A stretch of 45,839 nucleotides of DNA from a virus. Numbering within the stretch: the first letter of the stretch is position 1; the number at the start of each line of letters is the position of its first letter. The notes under the pieces were generated by a model that was not told the DNA's origin, did not search any database, and was given only the letters and a program-made list of their open reading frames with translations. The stretch lies in the IMG/VR virus record IMGVR_UViG_3300004369_000034, positions 1 to 45,839 of that record. The stretch is one strand, 5' to 3'. Position numbers and translations under genes: made by a program. Of this stretch, positions 26,796 through 36,799 are shown one piece after another.

Positions 26796-27529
26796 TGTCG
26801 TATTATCCTGCCTTACAAAAATCGGTACCATTCCCAGCTTCTGCGGGTGCCTTATTTAATGGTGTTTCTAGTCAGTGTACGAAGAGTGCCGCTATTCTCA
26901 CAAGTAATGCTACGGGTATCATGAGTTTTTGGATTAAACTTGACGGGACTGTTGAACGTATATTGACGACCGATGTGGCTTCGGGCAGTCAACCAATAAC
27001 ATTACAGGCCGTAACCGAGATAGGTAATCCGATAAGGTTGACCGTAGGTAAAGTAGGTGTCACACGAGCTGCCACCGTAAGCGTATCTCGTACAGATTTC
27101 GTGTCTGGGTGGAATCATGTATTGATGTCATGGGATATTGATACGGAAGTTGCCTCGGCCTATTTAAACGACGTACTGGCTACTAACGAGTCAATGGGTA
27201 ACTTCATCGGCGGCAATGCGGCTGTTCCTAGCGACTGGTACTTTTGTGAGGACGAAGATAATGCGGATAAGAGTAATATCAGCCTATCGCAGTTCTATTA
27301 TACAGAAGGAACATATTTAGACTTGAGCGTGGTAGCCAATAGACGTAAGTTTATTACAGATGCGGTCAAACCTGCGTATCTAGGTCTTGACGGTAGCAAG
27401 CCTACAGGGACTCAGCCCCTGATCTATTTGAATAAGAACGGCGGTAATTTCGGCGATAACACTGGTTCGGGTGGCGATTTCACAGAAGCTAACCTGACTA
27501 CGCCAACAAACACACCAGCTCGTCCTTAA
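26795..27529 (+). CDS. LamG/concanavalin-like lectin protein
   Basis: The 244-residue protein contains LFNGVSSQCTKSAAILTSNA, then MSFWIKLDG, VSGWNHVLMSWDIDTEVASA and YLNDVLA, the classical run of a laminin-G-type jelly roll. Such proteins in phage tail clusters bind sugars and often mediate adsorption. It is the last rightward late gene. Its stop codon TAA interlocks with that of the convergent DNA polymerase gene. Confidence 0.75.
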   Translation: MSYYPALQKSVPFPASAGALFNGVSSQCTKSAAILTSNATGIMSFWIKLDGTVERILTTDVASGSQPITLQAVTEIGNPIRLTVGKVGVTRAATVSVSRTDFVSGWNHVLMSWDIDTEVASAYLNDVLATNESMGNFIGGNAAVPSDWYFCEDEDNADKSNISLSQFYYTEGTYLDLSVVANRRKFITDAVKPAYLGLDGSKPTGTQPLIYLNKNGGNFGDNTGSGGDFTEANLTTPTNTPARP

Positions 27530-29550
27530 TCCGCTTTACCCCAATTTGGTCCTCTATCTGAATCAACTATTAAAGGTACGCGTGTTGGTATAGCTGTCTC
27601 CAGTATACGACGCATGTGAGCATACCCTTCAGTCTGCTCTGGGGTATCTTCTATTACGCTAAAGTTAAGTTCGTCGTGAACCTGCAACTTGGGGATACCT
27701 ATAACATCGAAGACCCCTTCTTGGTAGCAACGCACCATACCTTTTTTTATTATATCAGCGGCAGAACCTTGCAGTTTCCTGTTGATTCCTTTATGCGTGT
27801 GGGCACGTTGAATAGCTACTCCATACCTATTAAGTGCTGCTTGGTATTTTAAAGGAACAGCTCTATTTTCGTAATCGATGTCCACTGGTTCCCAGTAATC
27901 GAAACGACTCTTACGCCCTGTTATCGTTCTAATAAAACCGTGTTGCTGTACTTCCCACGCAGCCTGATCCATTGTAGCTTTTACATAAGGGTTTCCTTTG
28001 TGGTACGCGTCAAATAAAGCATTAACGCCTTGTTTATTTAAATTACCGCTAAAATACTCCATTATTGCTCTGCCCAGTTTTGGTTTACCCATACCATACA
28101 ATAAACCAAAATTAATATTTTTGATCGGCTTACGGTATAATTTGGCAGTATCCTTATTATCAGGCTCCCAACCCATATAAGGACAAACGCCTTGATAAGT
28201 TTTTACGTGGTAGTCAGTGAGCGGATTATCTAAGTACTCTTGCCGAAGGTCTTCAGCTCCCATACCAACAGCGAACTCGGCCAACATTCTATATTCAATT
28301 TGAGAATAATCGTCTTTTTCCCATGCTATATGGCCGGGGTCGGGTATAAAAAGTTGGCGTATCCTATTACCTAATTCAGTACGTACTGGGATATTTTGTA
28401 AATTAGGATTTGATGAAGAGTATCTACCACTTCTTGTACCACCTGAATCACCTCTCAGTGGGTGGAATTGACAGTGCACCCTGCCTTTTACATTAGACTC
28501 AAGTAAATAAGATTTAATAAATGTACCCCTTATCTTATTGTGTTCTCTTATGTTTCTAATTAATTCGCCGACAGGGTGGTCAAGAGAGTTCAAAAATTCT
28601 TTCCTAAACGAAGGATTACCAGCAGCTGTCATAGGATAAGCTATGCCCACATGGTCGAACAATTTTTGTAAGTCTTTAGGGCTTTCTACATTGGCGTGAA
28701 TCCCTGTGACATCGTACAATTTGCGTTCTAACTGTTTTACATCAACAGCCAGTTGACCGTATAATTGCTCGGCCTTACGTAAGTCTATTTGTACGCCTGT
28801 TTGACGCATCTTTGTTAAGAGGGGTATACTGTCACACTCCATACGGTACACGTCGGTGAGGCCCTCGTACTCCAGTATGGGGTACTGTTTGTCTAATACA
28901 CGTAAAGGCAGGTCTGCATCTTGCTGGCCATACGGACCTACTAGGCGCGGCGAGGTCCTGTAGAAATTGCTCTTGATTTCATTTTGACTTGTAGCGTTGT
29001 AGGCAGCAGCAATCCATTCATATAATAAATTAGTATCTTTACCTTCTCCACAGTATTTCTGACCGAGGTACTCTAAGGCAGTTAAGCCTTCCTCTTGTAG
29101 TAGTGCCTCAGCAAACTGGACATCGTGTAATTCGCCCTGTACTTCTATACCCTCTTCAGTGAGCCAGCCAACGTCATACAAAAGGTTAGCCCCCACCTTC
29201 GGTATATAGGGGGTCTCTAAATTTGCTTTAAGCCATTTAAAGCAGCTCTGAGGGTCAAGATTTAATTCTGGCTCTGCTTCATGCCTGACAGGGAAATACC
29301 AACTCCCTTGGTTGCCCCTGCGGTCTCTGGCGGCCACAGAGAAACCAATAATATGACCACAGTCACGAGACCAGCCGGGTCCCTTGTCAAAATCAGGTTC
29401 TTTTGTCTCCGTGTCCACAGCTATTACAGCTGCGTCGGTCAAGTCTGGAAATGAGGTAGGCGGCAGCCAACCAGTCTCAGGTATCGGCGGTGGTACATGT
29501 AGCCCGGCTTTCTTTTTTATTTGACCTAAATTTTCTTCTTCCCAGAACAC
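27526..29550 (-). CDS. Family A DNA polymerase with 3'-5' exonuclease
   Basis: The 674-residue polymerase opens with GTG at 29550 after AAAGGATAA. Exonuclease motifs are intact: D46-x-E48 (AVDTET), N122 and D126 (GANLLYDVG), Y207 and D211 (YGQQD). Polymerase motif A is DYSQIEYR (414-421), motif B runs R473-K477-F481-Y485 (RKPIKNINFGLLYG), and motif C is HDE at 625-627. It would be the replicative polymerase. Phe481 fits the E. coli-like 762 position. It lacks the 5'-3' exonuclease domain of bacterial PolI. It is the last gene of the long leftward operon and overlaps the stop of the lectin gene. Confidence 0.93.
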   Translation of the reverse strand: MFWEEENLGQIKKKAGLHVPPPIPETGWLPPTSFPDLTDAAVIAVDTETKEPDFDKGPGWSRDCGHIIGFSVAARDRRGNQGSWYFPVRHEAEPELNLDPQSCFKWLKANLETPYIPKVGANLLYDVGWLTEEGIEVQGELHDVQFAEALLQEEGLTALEYLGQKYCGEGKDTNLLYEWIAAAYNATSQNEIKSNFYRTSPRLVGPYGQQDADLPLRVLDKQYPILEYEGLTDVYRMECDSIPLLTKMRQTGVQIDLRKAEQLYGQLAVDVKQLERKLYDVTGIHANVESPKDLQKLFDHVGIAYPMTAAGNPSFRKEFLNSLDHPVGELIRNIREHNKIRGTFIKSYLLESNVKGRVHCQFHPLRGDSGGTRSGRYSSSNPNLQNIPVRTELGNRIRQLFIPDPGHIAWEKDDYSQIEYRMLAEFAVGMGAEDLRQEYLDNPLTDYHVKTYQGVCPYMGWEPDNKDTAKLYRKPIKNINFGLLYGMGKPKLGRAIMEYFSGNLNKQGVNALFDAYHKGNPYVKATMDQAAWEVQQHGFIRTITGRKSRFDYWEPVDIDYENRAVPLKYQAALNRYGVAIQRAHTHKGINRKLQGSAADIIKKGMVRCYQEGVFDVIGIPKLQVHDELNFSVIEDTPEQTEGYAHMRRILETAIPTRVPLIVDSDRGPNWGKAD

Positions 29551-30569: not shown

Positions 30570-31031
30570 TTACTTATCCTTAAATCTGCTGTCGTTTAAA
30601 ACTTGGTTATGTGTTAATACACCTAGACTGCTCAAAGAGTCAAAAGGTGGTTTTGTCATATTACTTGATAAGTTGTCTAAGTAATAATAACGACTGTTAT
30701 AACGTACACGTAGGTACATATGCCATTGTTTAACTAAGACCCCGTTCACGTAATATGTGTAGATGCCTACAGTGTAGGCTAAGTTTTCTTCAGGTAAACC
30801 TTCTTTAATGAGTTTGTATGCTTTGTAAATAGCAATGTCCTCGCAGTCACCGCTGCCACGGGTAATTGTCATATGGGGAGATTGCCACGTATCCACGGTA
30901 TCAGGGACGTACTGTATCGTATTGTTGACAAGATTATTTATGAAGAATATTTTTTGTTCATTAAAATGACCTGCACCAGCCGTATTAGCGTTGAGCAGTA
31001 GTATTACGAATAGACACATGCGAGCTAACAT
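30570..31031 (-). CDS. Exported BTLCP cysteine protease (LapG-like)
   Basis: The 153-residue protein starts with a signal peptide (MLARMCLFVILLLNANTAGA) with likely cleavage near residue 20. The rest matches the bacterial transglutaminase-like cysteine proteinase family (Peptidase C93): Cys63 in GSGDCEDIAIYK, His104 in KQWHMYLRV, Asp119 in YYYLDNLSS. This triad order and spacing are those of LapG, the periplasmic protease that cleaves the biofilm adhesin LapA. A phage copy could act on host surface adhesins or envelope proteins. It is odd within a replication operon. Family call strong, target unknown. Confidence 0.8.
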   Translation of the reverse strand: MLARMCLFVILLLNANTAGAGHFNEQKIFFINNLVNNTIQYVPDTVDTWQSPHMTITRGSGDCEDIAIYKAYKLIKEGLPEENLAYTVGIYTYYVNGVLVKQWHMYLRVRYNSRYYYLDNLSSNMTKPPFDSLSSLGVLTHNQVLNDSRFKDK

Positions 31032-31032
31032 T

Positions 31033-32013
31033 TCATTTATCCTTTATTTGAGATACGACGCCTCTAACATTGTCGCCTTGGAAGTACGTTATACCATCTA
31101 TACCACCGAAGTCAAATGCTTTTCCTAGTGTTAGTGCAAATTGTATTTGTTTTATATTAAACAGTACTTCGTCGGTGAGTCCTTCTACTTCATACGAAGC
31201 ACCTATGTTATCTTCGTCGTGGGTGCACACCAAACCTGCTTTAAATCTTACACGACCATCGTCTACGAAGTCAGCTACGACATCTACAGCCTCTTTTAGA
31301 TTAGGTGGTATTTCTTTGCTATTAAACGGTTTGTTCAATATACTGTCACAATCAGGCCACTTTTCATTATACAGTTGTGTCTTTAACCAGCTATTGTCGT
31401 CAAAATGTAGGGTTAGACTTGTTTCACTATAACCAAAGGCAACGATGTCTTTATCTATTTTAGCTAAAGCATTAATAAAGAGCTTAGGTACTAGTAGATT
31501 AGGCGGCATATCAAGACCGTGCCAGTACTCCACTATGATGTGGCCTGTTGTGGCTAACACAGAACCGCTGCGTATGCAAGCGGAGGCTGTAACAACCCGT
31601 TGACTACCTTCAAGTATTATAGGTGAAACCACTAACAAAGCATCTTTTAGTCTGTTGTCCAACGGGGCTATCGGCGGGTCGGGCTGCATGTTGACAAGGC
31701 TCGCGTCCTCTGAGCAAGGTATTAATGCCCGAAACTTACCCGATTTGACAGATATACGCCCACTGTCTAACTGTGTGACAGACAGCGGTCCCTTACACTT
31801 GGACAGAGCAGCTTTCATTTTACCTGAGTGTGGGCAAGCTACAATATTCTCGTCTATGACCTGTCCGGCAGCTAATACACCATCGTAGGCTATAGCTGTT
31901 TGATTATATAATCGGGTGTGCGTCTGGTAAGGTGCTCCCTTGTCTCTTTGTGCCAATGATACAAAGTTCAGTGCTTTAAGTATATCGGGTATTTCTTTCT
32001 TGGTTTTAGCCAT
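31033..32013 (-). CDS. Sliding-clamp-like (DnaN-like) protein
   Basis: The 326-residue protein begins after AGGAGGTAACT. Its pattern fits repeated clamp-type beta-alpha-beta units: CPHSGKMKAALSKCKGPLSV then SGRISVKSGKFRALIPC early, and similar strands later (NLKEAVDVVADFVDDGRVRF). It lies in the same operon as PolA. I infer a processivity clamp or clamp-like protein. Sequence similarity to bacterial beta clamps is weak by eye, so a structure prediction would be needed to confirm. Confidence 0.6.
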   Translation of the reverse strand: MAKTKKEIPDILKALNFVSLAQRDKGAPYQTHTRLYNQTAIAYDGVLAAGQVIDENIVACPHSGKMKAALSKCKGPLSVTQLDSGRISVKSGKFRALIPCSEDASLVNMQPDPPIAPLDNRLKDALLVVSPIILEGSQRVVTASACIRSGSVLATTGHIIVEYWHGLDMPPNLLVPKLFINALAKIDKDIVAFGYSETSLTLHFDDNSWLKTQLYNEKWPDCDSILNKPFNSKEIPPNLKEAVDVVADFVDDGRVRFKAGLVCTHDEDNIGASYEVEGLTDEVLFNIKQIQFALTLGKAFDFGGIDGITYFQGDNVRGVVSQIKDK

Positions 32014-32022
32014 AGTTACCTC

Positions 32023-32238
32023 CTAAAATGGGATTCCATCGTCTTCTTGGTACGAGTCACAACCACTAACAATAATAGATGCGGGTGGCCTTGCTTTGTA
32101 CAAAATGCAGTTTTCTGTTCGTTCGTCGAAATGGCCACAATTTGTACAATTCTGTGTCTGCTCGTTTAATGCGTCACGCATACCTATAACAAAATCGCTT
32201 ATAATCTTATTAATCATTTCTTCTCTAATTGAAGACAT
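32023..32238 (-). CDS. Small Cys4 protein with SSB-like C-terminal tip
   Basis: The 71-residue protein has a helical N-terminus and a probable zinc module: C31-x2-C34, C44 and C60 (NCTNCGHFDERTENC and VSGCDSYQE). The same module pattern closes the Cas4-like nuclease encoded nearby. Its last residues (EDDGIPF) resemble the DDDIPF tip of bacterial SSB, a known docking tail for partner proteins. GGAGG precedes the start, which overlaps the helicase gene by 14 bases. Function unknown; I infer a replisome or recombination adaptor. Confidence 0.65.
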   Translation of the reverse strand: MSSIREEMINKIISDFVIGMRDALNEQTQNCTNCGHFDERTENCILYKARPPASIIVSGCDSYQEDDGIPF

Positions 32239-33814
32239 AACCTAACACCTCCGGGTATTTTTTGTTAACGTGTACTTTTATTTTGTTTGGAACACGCAGT
32301 TGTGTAATTATTTCTAAAGCTTCTGCAATGGTGTCGGGTACATGGTCGCCGGGGAAATGGTGCCGCCACCAATCTCTCGCGTCTTTCCCAGCAAAACCAC
32401 CGTGCTCTAAGTGCACAAATTTATTGAATCTATGCAAGCCATTCTCACAGTGGTAAACTACTTTTATTGATGGCGTTGCTTTTTTATCATGTTTATAATA
32501 AAATACTTGGCTGACGTCGAAATATTCGATCACAGGTATGTCAGACACAATAAGCTCTTCTTCGCTTGCTTGAGCCACTATTTTAGTTTGAAATGTAAAT
32601 TCTTCACCACAATAACAACAGACCCTAGCCGACGCATGATTATACGTACCACACGCCTCACAAATACGAACAGGTGCGTCACCGCCGCCCTTACCTTTCT
32701 TTTTTGGTATTCTAGGATCGTTTATAGGTCCGAGTCTACGTGTATTTCCAGCAAAATCCAGTACAAGGCAGTTGTCTTTAAATGTGTCAGGTGAAGGGCG
32801 TGTGCCCCTGCCGAGCATTTGAACCCATAGACCGGGCGACATAGTAGGACGCAGCATACCAATAAGGTCAATAGGTGGAAAGTCAAAACCTGTTGTCAAA
32901 ACATTGTTATTAGTTAGGCATTGCAGAACACCGTTCTTGTAATCCTTAATACGATCGTCTCTTTCCTTCTGAGACATACCAGAGTGGACAGAGGCAGTTT
33001 TTACACCAAATGAGTTTAACATATCAGCTACATTGTCTGCGTGGTCATTGCCCGATGCGAAAATTAACCAATGGTGCCTGTCGCGACCTATATCGCACAT
33101 TTCCTCTAATGCTTTGAAAGTTACAGCATCTTTATCAACAGACTCTTGAAGGGACTTCAGGACAAACTCACCCCTGACAGAAACGTCCGAAACATCTAAT
33201 TCTGTTTTGGTTCTTTTAGGTATTAGACGGGCTAAATAACCCTCTTCTATGAATCTATTGAACCACTCAATACTCGTTAGATCGCAAGAAATATGCGTAA
33301 AAAGACCGCCGTCGGTAATCATACCCTGTCCCAGTCTGAAAGGTGTTGCCGACAAACCAATCACCACAAGATACGGATTTATCTCCATAAGCTCGGCGAT
33401 AATGTTCTGATAAGTACTATCAGACTTAGGCGACAATAAATGTGCTTCGTCAATCAGTAGAACGTCTCTGTGACCAAACATGCCTACACGGTTAGCTACG
33501 CTCCCCATGCCTCCAAATATTATAGGCATCACCGTGTCACGTTGCTTCAATCCCGCTGAATAAATACCTAAAGGAGCTGAGGGCCAGAGCTGTTGCAGTG
33601 TAGCACCATTTTGTTCGACCAACTCCTTTACATGGGTCAACATCATAAACTTTTGGTTGCCCCATTGTCGGATAGCCTGTTCTATAATACCAGCAATAAC
33701 CCACGACTTACCTGTACCTGTAGGCATAGCAATCACAGGGTGTTTACCTTGATTTTGACGTATAAAATCAAATGTGTCGTCAACCGCCTTTTGCTGAAAG
33801 TAACGTAAGGGCAT
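32225..33814 (-). CDS. SF2 DEAH-box helicase with zinc ribbon
   Basis: The 529-residue helicase shows motif I MPTGTGKS (30-37), motif II DEAH (122-125), motif III SAT (155-157) and motif VI QMLGRGTR (332-339), so both RecA-like domains are complete. A C-terminal zinc ribbon follows (C385, C388, C399, C402: ICEACGTYNHASARVCCYCG). Such phage enzymes act in branch migration, recombination restart or origin remodelling (UvsW-like). It lies in the replication operon beside the nuclease and clamp genes. Confidence 0.88.
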   Translation of the reverse strand: MPLRYFQQKAVDDTFDFIRQNQGKHPVIAMPTGTGKSWVIAGIIEQAIRQWGNQKFMMLTHVKELVEQNGATLQQLWPSAPLGIYSAGLKQRDTVMPIIFGGMGSVANRVGMFGHRDVLLIDEAHLLSPKSDSTYQNIIAELMEINPYLVVIGLSATPFRLGQGMITDGGLFTHISCDLTSIEWFNRFIEEGYLARLIPKRTKTELDVSDVSVRGEFVLKSLQESVDKDAVTFKALEEMCDIGRDRHHWLIFASGNDHADNVADMLNSFGVKTASVHSGMSQKERDDRIKDYKNGVLQCLTNNNVLTTGFDFPPIDLIGMLRPTMSPGLWVQMLGRGTRPSPDTFKDNCLVLDFAGNTRRLGPINDPRIPKKKGKGGGDAPVRICEACGTYNHASARVCCYCGEEFTFQTKIVAQASEEELIVSDIPVIEYFDVSQVFYYKHDKKATPSIKVVYHCENGLHRFNKFVHLEHGGFAGKDARDWWRHHFPGDHVPDTIAEALEIITQLRVPNKIKVHVNKKYPEVLGYVFN

Positions 33815-33815
33815 A

Positions 33816-33989
33816 TCACACGTCCTCTAAAGCATCACCGTAAACTTCATATAAATAGTCGTAAGGTTCTGCCCCACTACGGTATGCTTCTTTAATCCAC
33901 GATTCTTGATAACCACACTCAAACTTATTGCATAGTTCTACAAATTCTTGTTTGTACTGTTCATACTTAGTCAAATGAGCTGCTGTCAT
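33816..33989 (-). CDS. Hypothetical 57-residue protein
   Basis: The start is placed at 33989, where the ATG overlaps the upstream stop (TAATG) and follows CAGGAG; an ATG at 34007 would sit ahead of that ribosome site. The protein is helical and rich in Tyr and Glu (KYEQYKQEFVELCNKFECGY). No family recognised. It is translationally coupled to the Cas4-like nuclease gene. Confidence 0.6.
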   Translation of the reverse strand: MTAAHLTKYEQYKQEFVELCNKFECGYQESWIKEAYRSGAEPYDYLYEVYGDALEDV

Positions 33990-35272
33990 TATCTGTTCTC
34001 CTGCCAATAGTCACACCCTTGTTTAATAAAGTCTTCAGGTATTGTGCCGTAGTATGCACACGTCCAAGTCTTGTTAGGACCAGCCGCAGAGAACTTACAA
34101 CTACGACAATTCTTCTCGTAAGGTTCATTATTGTGGCATATACCTTGAAAATCACAAAAGCGGCATTTCCAGAATGCGCTATTCTCGTTAATCTTTGGTG
34201 GTGGTGTGCGTGAGTTAATTATACCACCGCCTCTCTTGATGAACGCTGCTCCCATAGCATGGTTCAGTTCAACTATTTCAATGTACATATCGTCGTTATC
34301 TTTATTAACTACTATGTACAAACCATAGTTTAAGTCGTATTTCAAACCATACACAGACATTTGTGTGTAATGAATCGGTTTCTCCGCTTTAATACCCTCT
34401 TCAACTAATTTGTCAAAGTATTTTGACGAAGATGTTTTGAACTCGGCTATCATACGCGGTAGGTGGTTTAAATGCTCAGGCCATTTTACAACAATACCGT
34501 CTAGCGAACCGCCAAAATGACCATCACACGCAGACATGCGTAATTGTTTTCTTTTAATTCCTTGGTGCATAGCTAATTCTTGGTGTTTACCGTCGCCTGT
34601 CACGTCAAAATACAGTTCTGAGTATTGATCGTCAGGGTCAAGAGAATAATTATTATCTTCAGCCCTATAATACAATTTAGAGTCGGGGTCGAACTCGTCA
34701 ACAATGACACCGACCTGTTTTAACCAGTCTAAGAGCCTAAATTCTTCATTATGCCCTCTGTTAAACAACCGCATCATACGCCCTTTTTGGCTTACACCTT
34801 TGCGATCCACAAAGTCAGCAGTATGGCACCATCTAAAACTGTACCAAAGTTTCCGTGCACAATCATCACCAATCATTGACGCACCTAAATGGTTACGGTG
34901 GCCATCGTCATAAATGTGCGCTGTTAAATCGTCTATCTCTTTTTTAAGGTTAGATGCTATATCTAACAAATCTTGTCCTGTGAATTGCACGGTCGGGTCT
35001 CTCTTTAATAAACGTTTCAACTTAACAATACGTTCTAATTTGTCTAATTCAGGGTGACGGTGTATCCACGCACTTGTGTAAGGCTGGAACTCTTTTTTAA
35101 AAAAGTTGTCCATACGCCTGTTACCTGTAGATATAGACGTGTTAATAGTAGCAGCTAAAATATCAAATACATTATCATCTACTATCGGGTCATTGTCTAT
35201 TTCATAGGCGTAAGCATACGCAGCAACGTCAATACGCCGCTTTATTTCTAACTCTTTTATAGTTCCCCACAT
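33989..35272 (-). CDS. Cas4/RecB-like nuclease with extra N- and C-terminal modules
   Basis: The 427-residue protein has three parts. Residues 1-90 resemble a small stand-alone phage protein (VAAYAYAYEIDNDPIVDDNV, later STGNRRMDNFF and WIHRHPELDK). The core is a PD-(D/E)XK nuclease of the Cas4/RecB type: H174-E176, D258 (GSLDG), E277-x-K279 (EFKTSS), Q304 and Y308 (HYTQMSVYG), with cysteines C138, C370, C373 and C379 placed as in Fe-S-containing Cas4 or AddB. A second Cys4 module (C389, C392, C405, C420) ends the protein. It likely resects DNA ends for Sak4-driven annealing. Confidence 0.82.
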   Translation of the reverse strand: MWGTIKELEIKRRIDVAAYAYAYEIDNDPIVDDNVFDILAATINTSISTGNRRMDNFFKKEFQPYTSAWIHRHPELDKLERIVKLKRLLKRDPTVQFTGQDLLDIASNLKKEIDDLTAHIYDDGHRNHLGASMIGDDCARKLWYSFRWCHTADFVDRKGVSQKGRMMRLFNRGHNEEFRLLDWLKQVGVIVDEFDPDSKLYYRAEDNNYSLDPDDQYSELYFDVTGDGKHQELAMHQGIKRKQLRMSACDGHFGGSLDGIVVKWPEHLNHLPRMIAEFKTSSSKYFDKLVEEGIKAEKPIHYTQMSVYGLKYDLNYGLYIVVNKDNDDMYIEIVELNHAMGAAFIKRGGGIINSRTPPPKINENSAFWKCRFCDFQGICHNNEPYEKNCRSCKFSAAGPNKTWTCAYYGTIPEDFIKQGCDYWQENR

Positions 35273-35337: not shown

Positions 35338-36123
35338 TTATTGGCCTTGAGGCGGCCAAGCTGGAGCTGGAGCAGCAGCTGGGGCTTGTTGGCCTTGCGG
35401 CGTCCAAGGTGGTGCTCCCGCAGGGGCAGTAGCAGCTTGCGTAGGTTGAGCGTTGTTAAACGCCTGTGGTTGCTGTGCTGGAGCTGGAGCAGCCTGATAT
35501 TGCTGTTGTGGTTGAGCAGTGGCTGGTGGTTGACCCGCCTGTTGCTGTGCAAAGGGTGGAAACTGCTGTGGGTTAGCACCTTGGGGCTGTTGAGCTGGTG
35601 CACCAAAATTTCCAGCTGAAGGTTGCTGTGGCTGAGCTACAGCAACAGGAGTAGGTTGTGCTTGTGCCACTGGAGCTGTTTGTGCCGGAGCCGTACCAGT
35701 ACCCGCTCTATTTGGTTTATTACCATTAACGTCATACACAGCTTTCACACTATTGTACTTACCGTCATTGGTTACATTAATTTTCAAAGAAGCACCCTTC
35801 AAAGAAGCCCCTGCGTTGTTAAAGTCAAGTTTGAACTGACCTGTCACGTAACAAAGAGCAGACAATTGTTTGTGGGCAATTTCACACGCCTGTGGTGATT
35901 GGTTATGCCACAAATTATATTGATTATAAACTTTAGAGCCTTTGTATTCTCCGTTTGCTACACAAAAAACTACTTTAAAACCCTGTCCTTTATTATCTTT
36001 CAGATCAAATAGTTCAGTGGATTCAACAATTACGTCGTATGTACCTGCTGGGATAGCTTCTACACCAACGTCCGGCTCGTACTGACTCGCGTCAAATTCA
36101 TAATTCATTGTTTTGTTACTCAT
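35338..36123 (-). CDS. DUF669-type single-stranded DNA-binding protein
   Basis: The 261-residue protein starts after AAAGGATTTACT. Residues about 20-140 form an OB-fold-like domain of the DUF669 type (AIPAGTYDVIVESTELFDLK, GQGFKVVFCVANGEYKGSKV, LSALCYVTGQFKLD). The remaining 120 residues are a Pro/Gln/Ala-rich low-complexity tail ending PAWPPQGQ, with no acidic SSB tip. It is adjacent to the Sak4-like ATPase, the usual partner. It would coat ssDNA during replication and strand annealing. Confidence 0.8.
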   Translation of the reverse strand: MSNKTMNYEFDASQYEPDVGVEAIPAGTYDVIVESTELFDLKDNKGQGFKVVFCVANGEYKGSKVYNQYNLWHNQSPQACEIAHKQLSALCYVTGQFKLDFNNAGASLKGASLKINVTNDGKYNSVKAVYDVNGNKPNRAGTGTAPAQTAPVAQAQPTPVAVAQPQQPSAGNFGAPAQQPQGANPQQFPPFAQQQAGQPPATAQPQQQYQAAPAPAQQPQAFNNAQPTQAATAPAGAPPWTPQGQQAPAAAPAPAWPPQGQ

Positions 36124-36133
36124 AGTAAATCCT

Positions 36134-36799
36134 TTAATTTAAAATTTTGTTAAAAAGGTTAGTTAGGTTAGGCGGCTCAAACTCAGCCAACTTTAAACTA
36201 CGGTCTCGCGCCCTAGCGTCAAAAGTGGACTTTGTTCTAAACGCCTGTACCACACCTTGACCCGGCACATTATGGTTATCAAGATGTAATATTTCGTCGT
36301 ATAAGTGGGGTATTTTAACACTCAAATCTTTACCGGGGAAATAAGGCGTTTTTTCCACAGGTGTTGTGTCAGTCTGCCCTTGTTTGCAAATTAGGTAAGT
36401 GTGTTTTCCTTTGGTAAAATACAGCGAATTTATGTGTTCCATCATACGACGCGACATTTCTCCGTAAGCTTTTCTACCGTCCCTATTTCGCCCCAACTCT
36501 TGTGTTAGTATAAGCTCTGCTTGTTGAGACAAACTATCTACACAAACAGTAAGATATTGGTTTGCTTCAACAGAGCTAAATAACCAGCGATAAAATTCGT
36601 CTATCTCTTGAGGAGTGTAAGCTTCCCATACAGGTATATTACTCGACCGCAACGAGAGCAAGCCCGGCTCTGAAGCACAGAGTATAGGTGCAGGTGCAGT
36701 CGCGCAAATAGGCGTTTTGCCTGACCCCGGAGGGCCGTAAACAAGTGCTTTAACGCCAAAGAAACTGGCTGCCGACGAGGCTGGGACTATTTTGCTCAT
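36134..36799 (-). CDS. Sak4-like RecA-fold recombinase ATPase
   Basis: The 221-residue protein has Walker A GPPGSGKT (22-29), a Walker-B-like strand ending in Asp88 (YLTVCVDSLS) and a RecA-like core without a RecA C-terminal domain. This size and setting beside a DUF669 SSB are typical of Sak4, a single-strand annealing recombinase. The start overlaps the upstream stop (ATGA). It would load on SSB-coated DNA for recombination-dependent replication. Confidence 0.82.
   Translation of the reverse strand: MSKIVPASSAASFFGVKALVYGPPGSGKTPICATAPAPILCASEPGLLSLRSSNIPVWEAYTPQEIDEFYRWLFSSVEANQYLTVCVDSLSQQAELILTQELGRNRDGRKAYGEMSRRMMEHINSLYFTKGKHTYLICKQGQTDTTPVEKTPYFPGKDLSVKIPHLYDEILHLDNHNVPGQGVVQAFRTKSTFDARARDRSLKLAEFEPPNLTNLFNKILN

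Follow-up and report, generated by a model that had tools for sequence, protein, structure and literature searches.

The tails of bacterial single-stranded DNA-binding protein (SSB) form a hub through which genome-maintenance proteins are recruited, and docking pockets for the extreme C-terminus of SSB (SSB-Ct) are present on ExoI, RecO, RecQ, chi, PriA and RadD. Such pockets recognise the terminal Phe, by its side chain and carboxylate, together with an upstream Asp (PMC10238739), and chi/psi tie the clamp loader to SSB via the SSB tail (PMC13213242). In phage HK620, the SSB is of the DUF669 type, and its end, NDYPPF, serves the interaction with Sak4 and is needed for Sak4 stimulation (PMC5928155). 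Here, we analyzed a 71-residue protein encoded in the replication-recombination cluster of a phage, using a window of 45,839 nucleotides that spans positions 1 to 45,839 of IMG/VR record IMGVR_UViG_3300004369_000034. The protein (full sequence MSSIREEMINKIISDFVIGMRDALNEQTQNCTNCGHFDERTENCILYKARPPASIIVSGCDSYQEDDGIPF) contains four cysteines, C31, C34, C44 and C60, and ends in GCDSYQEDDGIPF. Like the SSB-Ct of Escherichia coli (MDFDDDIPF), its tip consists of acidic residues and then Ile-Pro-Phe at the extreme C-terminus, the two being alike in length and order. Our reading, to which we assign a probability of roughly 0.6, is that the small protein has the dedicated role of presenting a docking peptide of the SSB-Ct type, which would act in trans by binding to a host replication or repair protein, and that about one tip of this kind is required by the phage assembly.

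Residues 26-71 of the small protein matched the profile of phrog_23504 (E 2.1e-12), as did 63/63 aligned homologues. Homologues were found by tblastn in 83 phage records, with the last residue reached in nearly all alignments listed. C31, C34, C44, P51, P52, C60, I69, P70 and F71 were invariant in 18 homologues, and in 63 more distant small proteins the four cysteines and P52 were invariant and P51, P70 and F71 were conserved in at least 90%. Both the IPF end and the four-cysteine (Cys4) module were kept in phages of Paracoccus, Erwinia, Sphingomonas, Xanthomonas, Vibrio and Rhizobium, and also in Pseudomonas, Shewanella, Achromobacter and Synechococcus phages. Among 73 scored tips, the penultimate residue was Pro in all 73, the last was Phe (70) or Tyr (3), and the one before them was Ile (67), Val (5) or Leu (1); the IPF tip was lost in a few members of the family (loci L182, L223, L228, L235 and L251). 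The first-pass annotation, which was made from the letters of this DNA, had the residues and coordinates of the small protein and of the Cas4-like nuclease of the same cluster exactly right, and its proposal of an SSB-type docking tail supplied in trans by the small protein is well supported, both because the tip is conserved and because in relatives it has repeatedly moved to the clamp, helicase, nuclease or SSB.

No Pfam SSB match was obtained for the small protein, in which no OB fold was found, and PF00436 (SSB) was not found in the phage of the window. A match to PF03692 (CxxCxxCC zinc- or iron-chelating domain) reached 18.6 bits (E 0.0032), under the 23-bit cut-off, and sequence searches for solved structures of the small protein or the nuclease returned none that was convincing. 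Paracoccus phage vB_PmaS-R3 (L003:5965-6198) and Sphingomonas phage Eidolon (L014:6384-6689) also have the small gene, although it is not annotated in either. At L070:13041-13892, a 284-aa stop-to-stop frame ends in a Cys4 module with a DEIPY tip, preceded by a longer N-terminal part to which the module is joined either by fusion or by read-through.

A direct search of viral contigs from the small protein gave no pattern match; the loci of relatives were instead collected via nuclease and clamp profiles, and 258 loci were scored (226 after duplicate removal); the survey profiles were built from 14-19 sequences each, and viral contigs can be incomplete. Counting complete open reading frames (ORFs) of at least 50 aa before duplicate removal, an acidic [IVL]PF end was observed in the 258 loci on 82 small-family ORFs, 60 clamps, 18 helicases and 4 nucleases, and elsewhere on 4 other ORFs, out of a total of 30,366 complete ORFs. 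A tipped small protein with an untipped clamp was found 56 times, a tipped clamp without the small gene 35 times, both tips twice and neither 20 times (Fisher p 1e-12, kinship not corrected for), and three of the 20 loci with neither had a tipped helicase (L108, L118 and L120). Four phages without the small gene, PaCCP1, DoCa11, FtMidnight and BREN6, have clamps that end in DDIPF. Both the nuclease and the clamp were seen in 115 loci; one tip was present in 94 of these, none in 19 and two in two. On a helicase tree built with FastTree only, the tip carrier changed at least 15 times; helicase tips (DDDIPF) occurred in 15 rows of the tree and nuclease tips in few. One tip, usually on exactly one protein, suggests that these phages need one such handle, probably engaging host DNA-replication proteins.

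In seven loci, the Cys4 small protein was kept without a usable tip beside a tipped clamp, and hence tip and Cys4 fold are separable. The small protein of L251 (5415-5666) contains RDKDDIPF followed by seven further residues, and the clamp of the same phage ends in DDVPF. Since this small protein reads on past DDIPF, the free Phe carboxylate is lost, and the locus looks like a snapshot of a tip swap. In the gap between helicase and clamp at L056:2980-3034, only a start (MNIDRGTA) and an end (GIPF) of the small gene are left, and these lie in different frames, as either a deletion remnant or an assembly error.

A scan of viral contigs for DDDIPF followed by a stop yielded 120 ORFs, only 30 of which matched an OB-fold SSB profile that was seeded with the E. 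coli SSB sequence; a protein should not be identified as an SSB by its acidic-IPF end. The scan also gave further helicases with a tip, next to nucleases or SSBs without one (L367, L371, L294 and L317). The OB-fold SSB profile and the profiles of this module left 78/120 of the DDDIPF ORFs (L258-L375) unmatched, and a recurrent protein of ~80-100 aa with the pattern GSLFKND..THPDY.G...WLS.W was seen among them. In a literature search of incomplete coverage, no phage clamp, helicase or Cys4 protein was found to have been described with an SSB-Ct-like tip.

Several observations weigh against a docking role with one tip per assembly. Small-protein tips are less acidic than those of clamps and helicases, with Asp or Glu at position -4 in 57/73 small-protein tips compared with 43/44 clamp and 15/15 helicase tips (the window tip reads EDDG-IPF), and a few are without acidic residues (IMVIPF, SRTIPF). 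Kinship-controlled tests, which comprised few pairs, gave a median p of 0.125 for small protein vs clamp and of 0.06 for small protein vs any other carrier, always in the direction of the one-tip rule. Several records of the 19 tip-less loci are genome-sized (39-50 kb) and have no tip anywhere by pattern scan; a search of 12 tip-less records for the tip on other proteins turned up a single case, a DDVPF end in L086. As some lineages are tip-less, the complementarity is strong but not absolute, and as such lineages do have clamps, neither is the need for a tip. Some short contigs may hide genes, and binding by the tip is a prediction from sequence.

The first-pass annotation had also pointed to one Cys4 pattern in the small protein and at the C-terminus of the nuclease. 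Profile-profile comparison of the two modules gave a probability of 96.6% and a score of 37.9. Because E-values of single-pair hhalign runs are not database-calibrated, shuffles were used, and with the Cys columns fixed (n=200) the score never rose above 20.5; with the Cys masked, the probability was still 79.8%. Cysteine spacing alone was ruled out as the source of the likeness by the Cys-fixed and within-segment shuffles. The predicted secondary structure follows the same order in both modules, namely a CxxC turn, a hairpin at the third Cys, a short helix and the fourth Cys, and no match to the module was obtained for the C4 ribbon of the helicase or for the Fe-S triplet (4.5% and 2.5%, respectively). 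By their profiles, the modules of nuclease and small protein are homologous beyond cysteine spacing. The shared cysteine pattern thus stood, whereas the literal GCD-[SY][YW]-QE likeness is partly accidental, the family pattern being CxxC...C...P...GC. The Cys4 knuckle probably binds metal, as Zn or [4Fe-4S]. The sole Foldseek match for it, to a HiPIP, was not significant (E 6.8), and VIA-align gave Z <2.

The nuclease matched phrog_1990 (E 5.6e-86), and its fold is like that of SSO0001/Cas4 and lambda exonuclease. In 67 nucleases, the core residues D258, K279 and Q304 were invariant and E277 nearly so. Putative Cas4-type Fe-S cysteines, C138 in the N-terminal and C370, C373 and C379 in the C-terminal part, are conserved and distinct from the Cys4 module (C389, C392, C405 and C420), of which all four cysteines were invariant in 19 nucleases and, in the 67, C389, C392 and C405 still were and C420 nearly was. 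The nuclease also has an N-terminal extension of ~100 aa (34967-35272, minus strand), to which only some relatives align; its residues 6-77 gave a sub-threshold match to PF22745 (DNA ligase NAD+-binding Ia domain; E 1.7e-4, 22.6 bits, cut-off 27).

It had further been noted that the phage's own DUF669 SSB lacks an SSB-like tip. This holds across the family, with IPF ends in 0/161 complete C-termini, but the protein is not tail-less, since in 147/161 the low-complexity tail leads into a P(x)W terminus that is conserved. As the DUF669 SSBs have this end of their own and none has IPF, the tip is not in general a replacement for a missing SSB end. As the NDYPPF end of the HK620 SSB does for Sak4, the P(x)W end may serve the phage's own partners, possibly as a docking tip. 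Outside the set of 161, the DDDIPF-stop scan added a DUF669 SSB (L339) that bears both a P(x)W-type end, PPW, and DDDIPF on one protein.

A beta clamp was found in 22/22 records tested, PF13177 (clamp loader) in 0/22, with 13/14 control genomes positive, and PF00436 (OB-fold SSB) in 0/22. Because a clamp is encoded and no clamp loader was detected, host clamp loading is a plausible need, and the presence of a clamp without a loader or an OB-fold SSB makes a host SSB-tip-binding protein the likeliest target. In the mechanism that we propose, the helix and the probably metal-binding Cys4 knuckle would hold the small protein in the phage replication-recombination assembly, and its free acidic-Ile-Pro-Phe C-terminus would dock in the pocket that host replication or repair proteins use for host SSB. 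From gene coupling, module homology and the alternative fusions we infer that the small protein is probably anchored to the nuclease, helicase or clamp. The assembly would need about one tip; in related phages one finds the peptide directly on a clamp, RadD-like helicase, nuclease or DUF669 SSB, and with such a carrier tipped the small protein is usually missing or without a usable tip. The tip would recruit a host SSB-tip-binding protein, perhaps chi, for clamp loading. Chi, a clamp-loader subunit, is the leading candidate for the host partner, a prediction that we hold only tentatively. Equally tentative is a one-tip-per-replisome rule, by which the phage would use its own beta clamp and the host clamp loader, hooked via a mobile peptide that mimics host SSB and moves between Cys4 adaptor, clamp, helicase, nuclease and SSB.

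Docking of the tip on a phage protein of the same module, chiefly the RadD-like helicase, which would be recruited or activated at the clamp, nuclease or SSB, is unlikely in our estimation. The helicase is clearly homologous to RadD (6jde, E 2.4e-90), with hydrophobic residues kept at the hydrophobic positions of the pocket, and E. coli RadD binds SSB-Ct, is stimulated thereby and has a mapped and functional SSB-Ct pocket (PMC10238739). However, at the RadD pocket positions of 177 phage helicases, Arg145 is K/R in 165, whereas the positions of Arg21 and Arg49 have Arg in no more than 14 and 12, respectively; charge reversal showed that E. coli RadD cannot bind SSB-Ct without either of the two. 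As only one of the three basic pocket positions is retained, self-docking in the manner of RadD is improbable, and the helicase was rejected as the tip receptor. Moreover, the helicases of tip-less phages do not look different at these sites, and in one group the helicase itself carries the tip. We also doubt a decoy role, in which the small protein, free in the cell and outside the phage replisome, would saturate the SSB-tip pockets of recombination proteins or nucleases of the host (ExoI, RecJ, RecQ and RecO) and protect the phage DNA. A free protein whose tip sequence matches the host motif could act in this way, but clamps, helicases and nucleases, all core replication proteins, bear the tip as a fusion again and again, which fits tethering better, and in most relatives the small gene overlaps or abuts the helicase gene, a short overlap being the commonest arrangement. 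A role of IPF unrelated to SSB-Ct, either in the structure of the small protein or in its degradation or solubility, with coincidental tips on clamps and helicases, is very unlikely. Acidic residues are scarce or lacking in some small-protein tips, and Cys4 and IPF co-vary in most family members, but within this one module the same rare terminus occurs in a complementary distribution on four or five proteins that are not related to each other, small proteins persist without it, the spacer from the last Cys to IPF is variable (mostly 5-9 aa), which argues against a fixed structural role of the tip, and the predicted model, a helix plus a Cys4 knuckle, is fairly confident in the core and of low confidence in the tail.

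The conserved cluster runs Sak4–DUF669-SSB–Cas4 nuclease–RadD-like helicase–small protein–β-clamp–PolA, and its features in the window are listed in Table 1. The small gene, which overlaps the helicase gene end by 14 nt, has the nuclease, DUF669 SSB and Sak4 genes as further upstream neighbours and is followed by the clamp gene, four smaller genes and then the family A polymerase gene. Megablast of half of the window against phage records gave zero matches.

Table 1 Features of the replication-recombination cluster in the window.
Feature	Coordinates	Strand	Basis or remark
Tip-carrier protein, 71 aa, phrog_23504	32023..32238	(-)	N-terminal helix, Cys4 knuckle and C-terminal SSB-Ct-like tip
Cys4 module of small protein: C31, C34, C44, C60, plus P51 P52	32059..32148	(-)	Conservation, profile comparison
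SSB-Ct-like tip EDDGIPF, residues 65-71, stop codon next	32026..32046	(-)	Sequence, conservation
14-nt overlap of small gene start and helicase gene end	32225..32238	(-)	Gene coordinates
RadD-like SF2 helicase with own C4 ribbon (C385, C388, C399, C402)	32225..33814	(-)	Alternative tip carrier in relatives
Beta sliding clamp homologue, tip-less here	31033..32013	(-)	Commonest alternative tip carrier in relatives
Cas4-like nuclease, phrog_1990, 427 aa, ends GCDYWQENR	33989..35272	(-)	Profile match, Cas4/lambda exonuclease-like fold
C-terminal Cys4 module of nuclease: C389, C392, C405, C420	34013..34108	(-)	Homologous to module of small protein (by profile)
DUF669 single-strand DNA binding protein, low-complexity tail ending PAWPPQGQ	35338..36123	(-)	No IPF tip
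P(x)W end region of DUF669 SSB	35341-35373	(-)	End common to DUF669 SSBs of the module
Sak4-like ATPase/annealase, same module	36134..36799	(-)	Profile matches
Family A DNA polymerase, same module	27526..29550	(-)	Profile matches
Transglutaminase-like cysteine peptidase, PF06035, E 4e-10, signal-like N-terminus	30570-31031	(-)	Inside replication cluster

With a host-directed docking peptide on the small protein as the favored reading, phrog_23504, a family without an assigned function whose entry records neither the tip nor the switching of carriers, gains a functional hypothesis. The tip is a likely point of contact between phage replication and the host, and the natural series of tip swaps makes its host-protein address directly testable. 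Compared with known systems, the SSB-Ct of E. coli is borne by an OB-fold SSB, whereas the tip described here, known from sequence, is carried by a protein that has no OB fold and, in relatives of this phage, by a clamp, helicase or nuclease. Phage HK620 pairs Sak4 with a DUF669 SSB as the phage of the window does, but its DUF669 SSB ends in NDYPPF, whereas P(x)W is the end in the window's family, in which a different protein bears the SSB-like tip. The window nuclease has its nuclease domain, putative Fe-S cysteines and fold in common with Cas4/phrog_1990 and differs in the extra C-terminal Cys4 module, located past the Fe-S cysteines, that it shares with the small protein. In both E. coli RadD and the phage helicase, an SF2 helicase core is followed by zinc-ribbon-like cysteines, but two of the three SSB-Ct arginines of the RadD pocket are not kept in the phage helicases, some relatives of which, unlike E. 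coli RadD, carry a DDDIPF end of their own.

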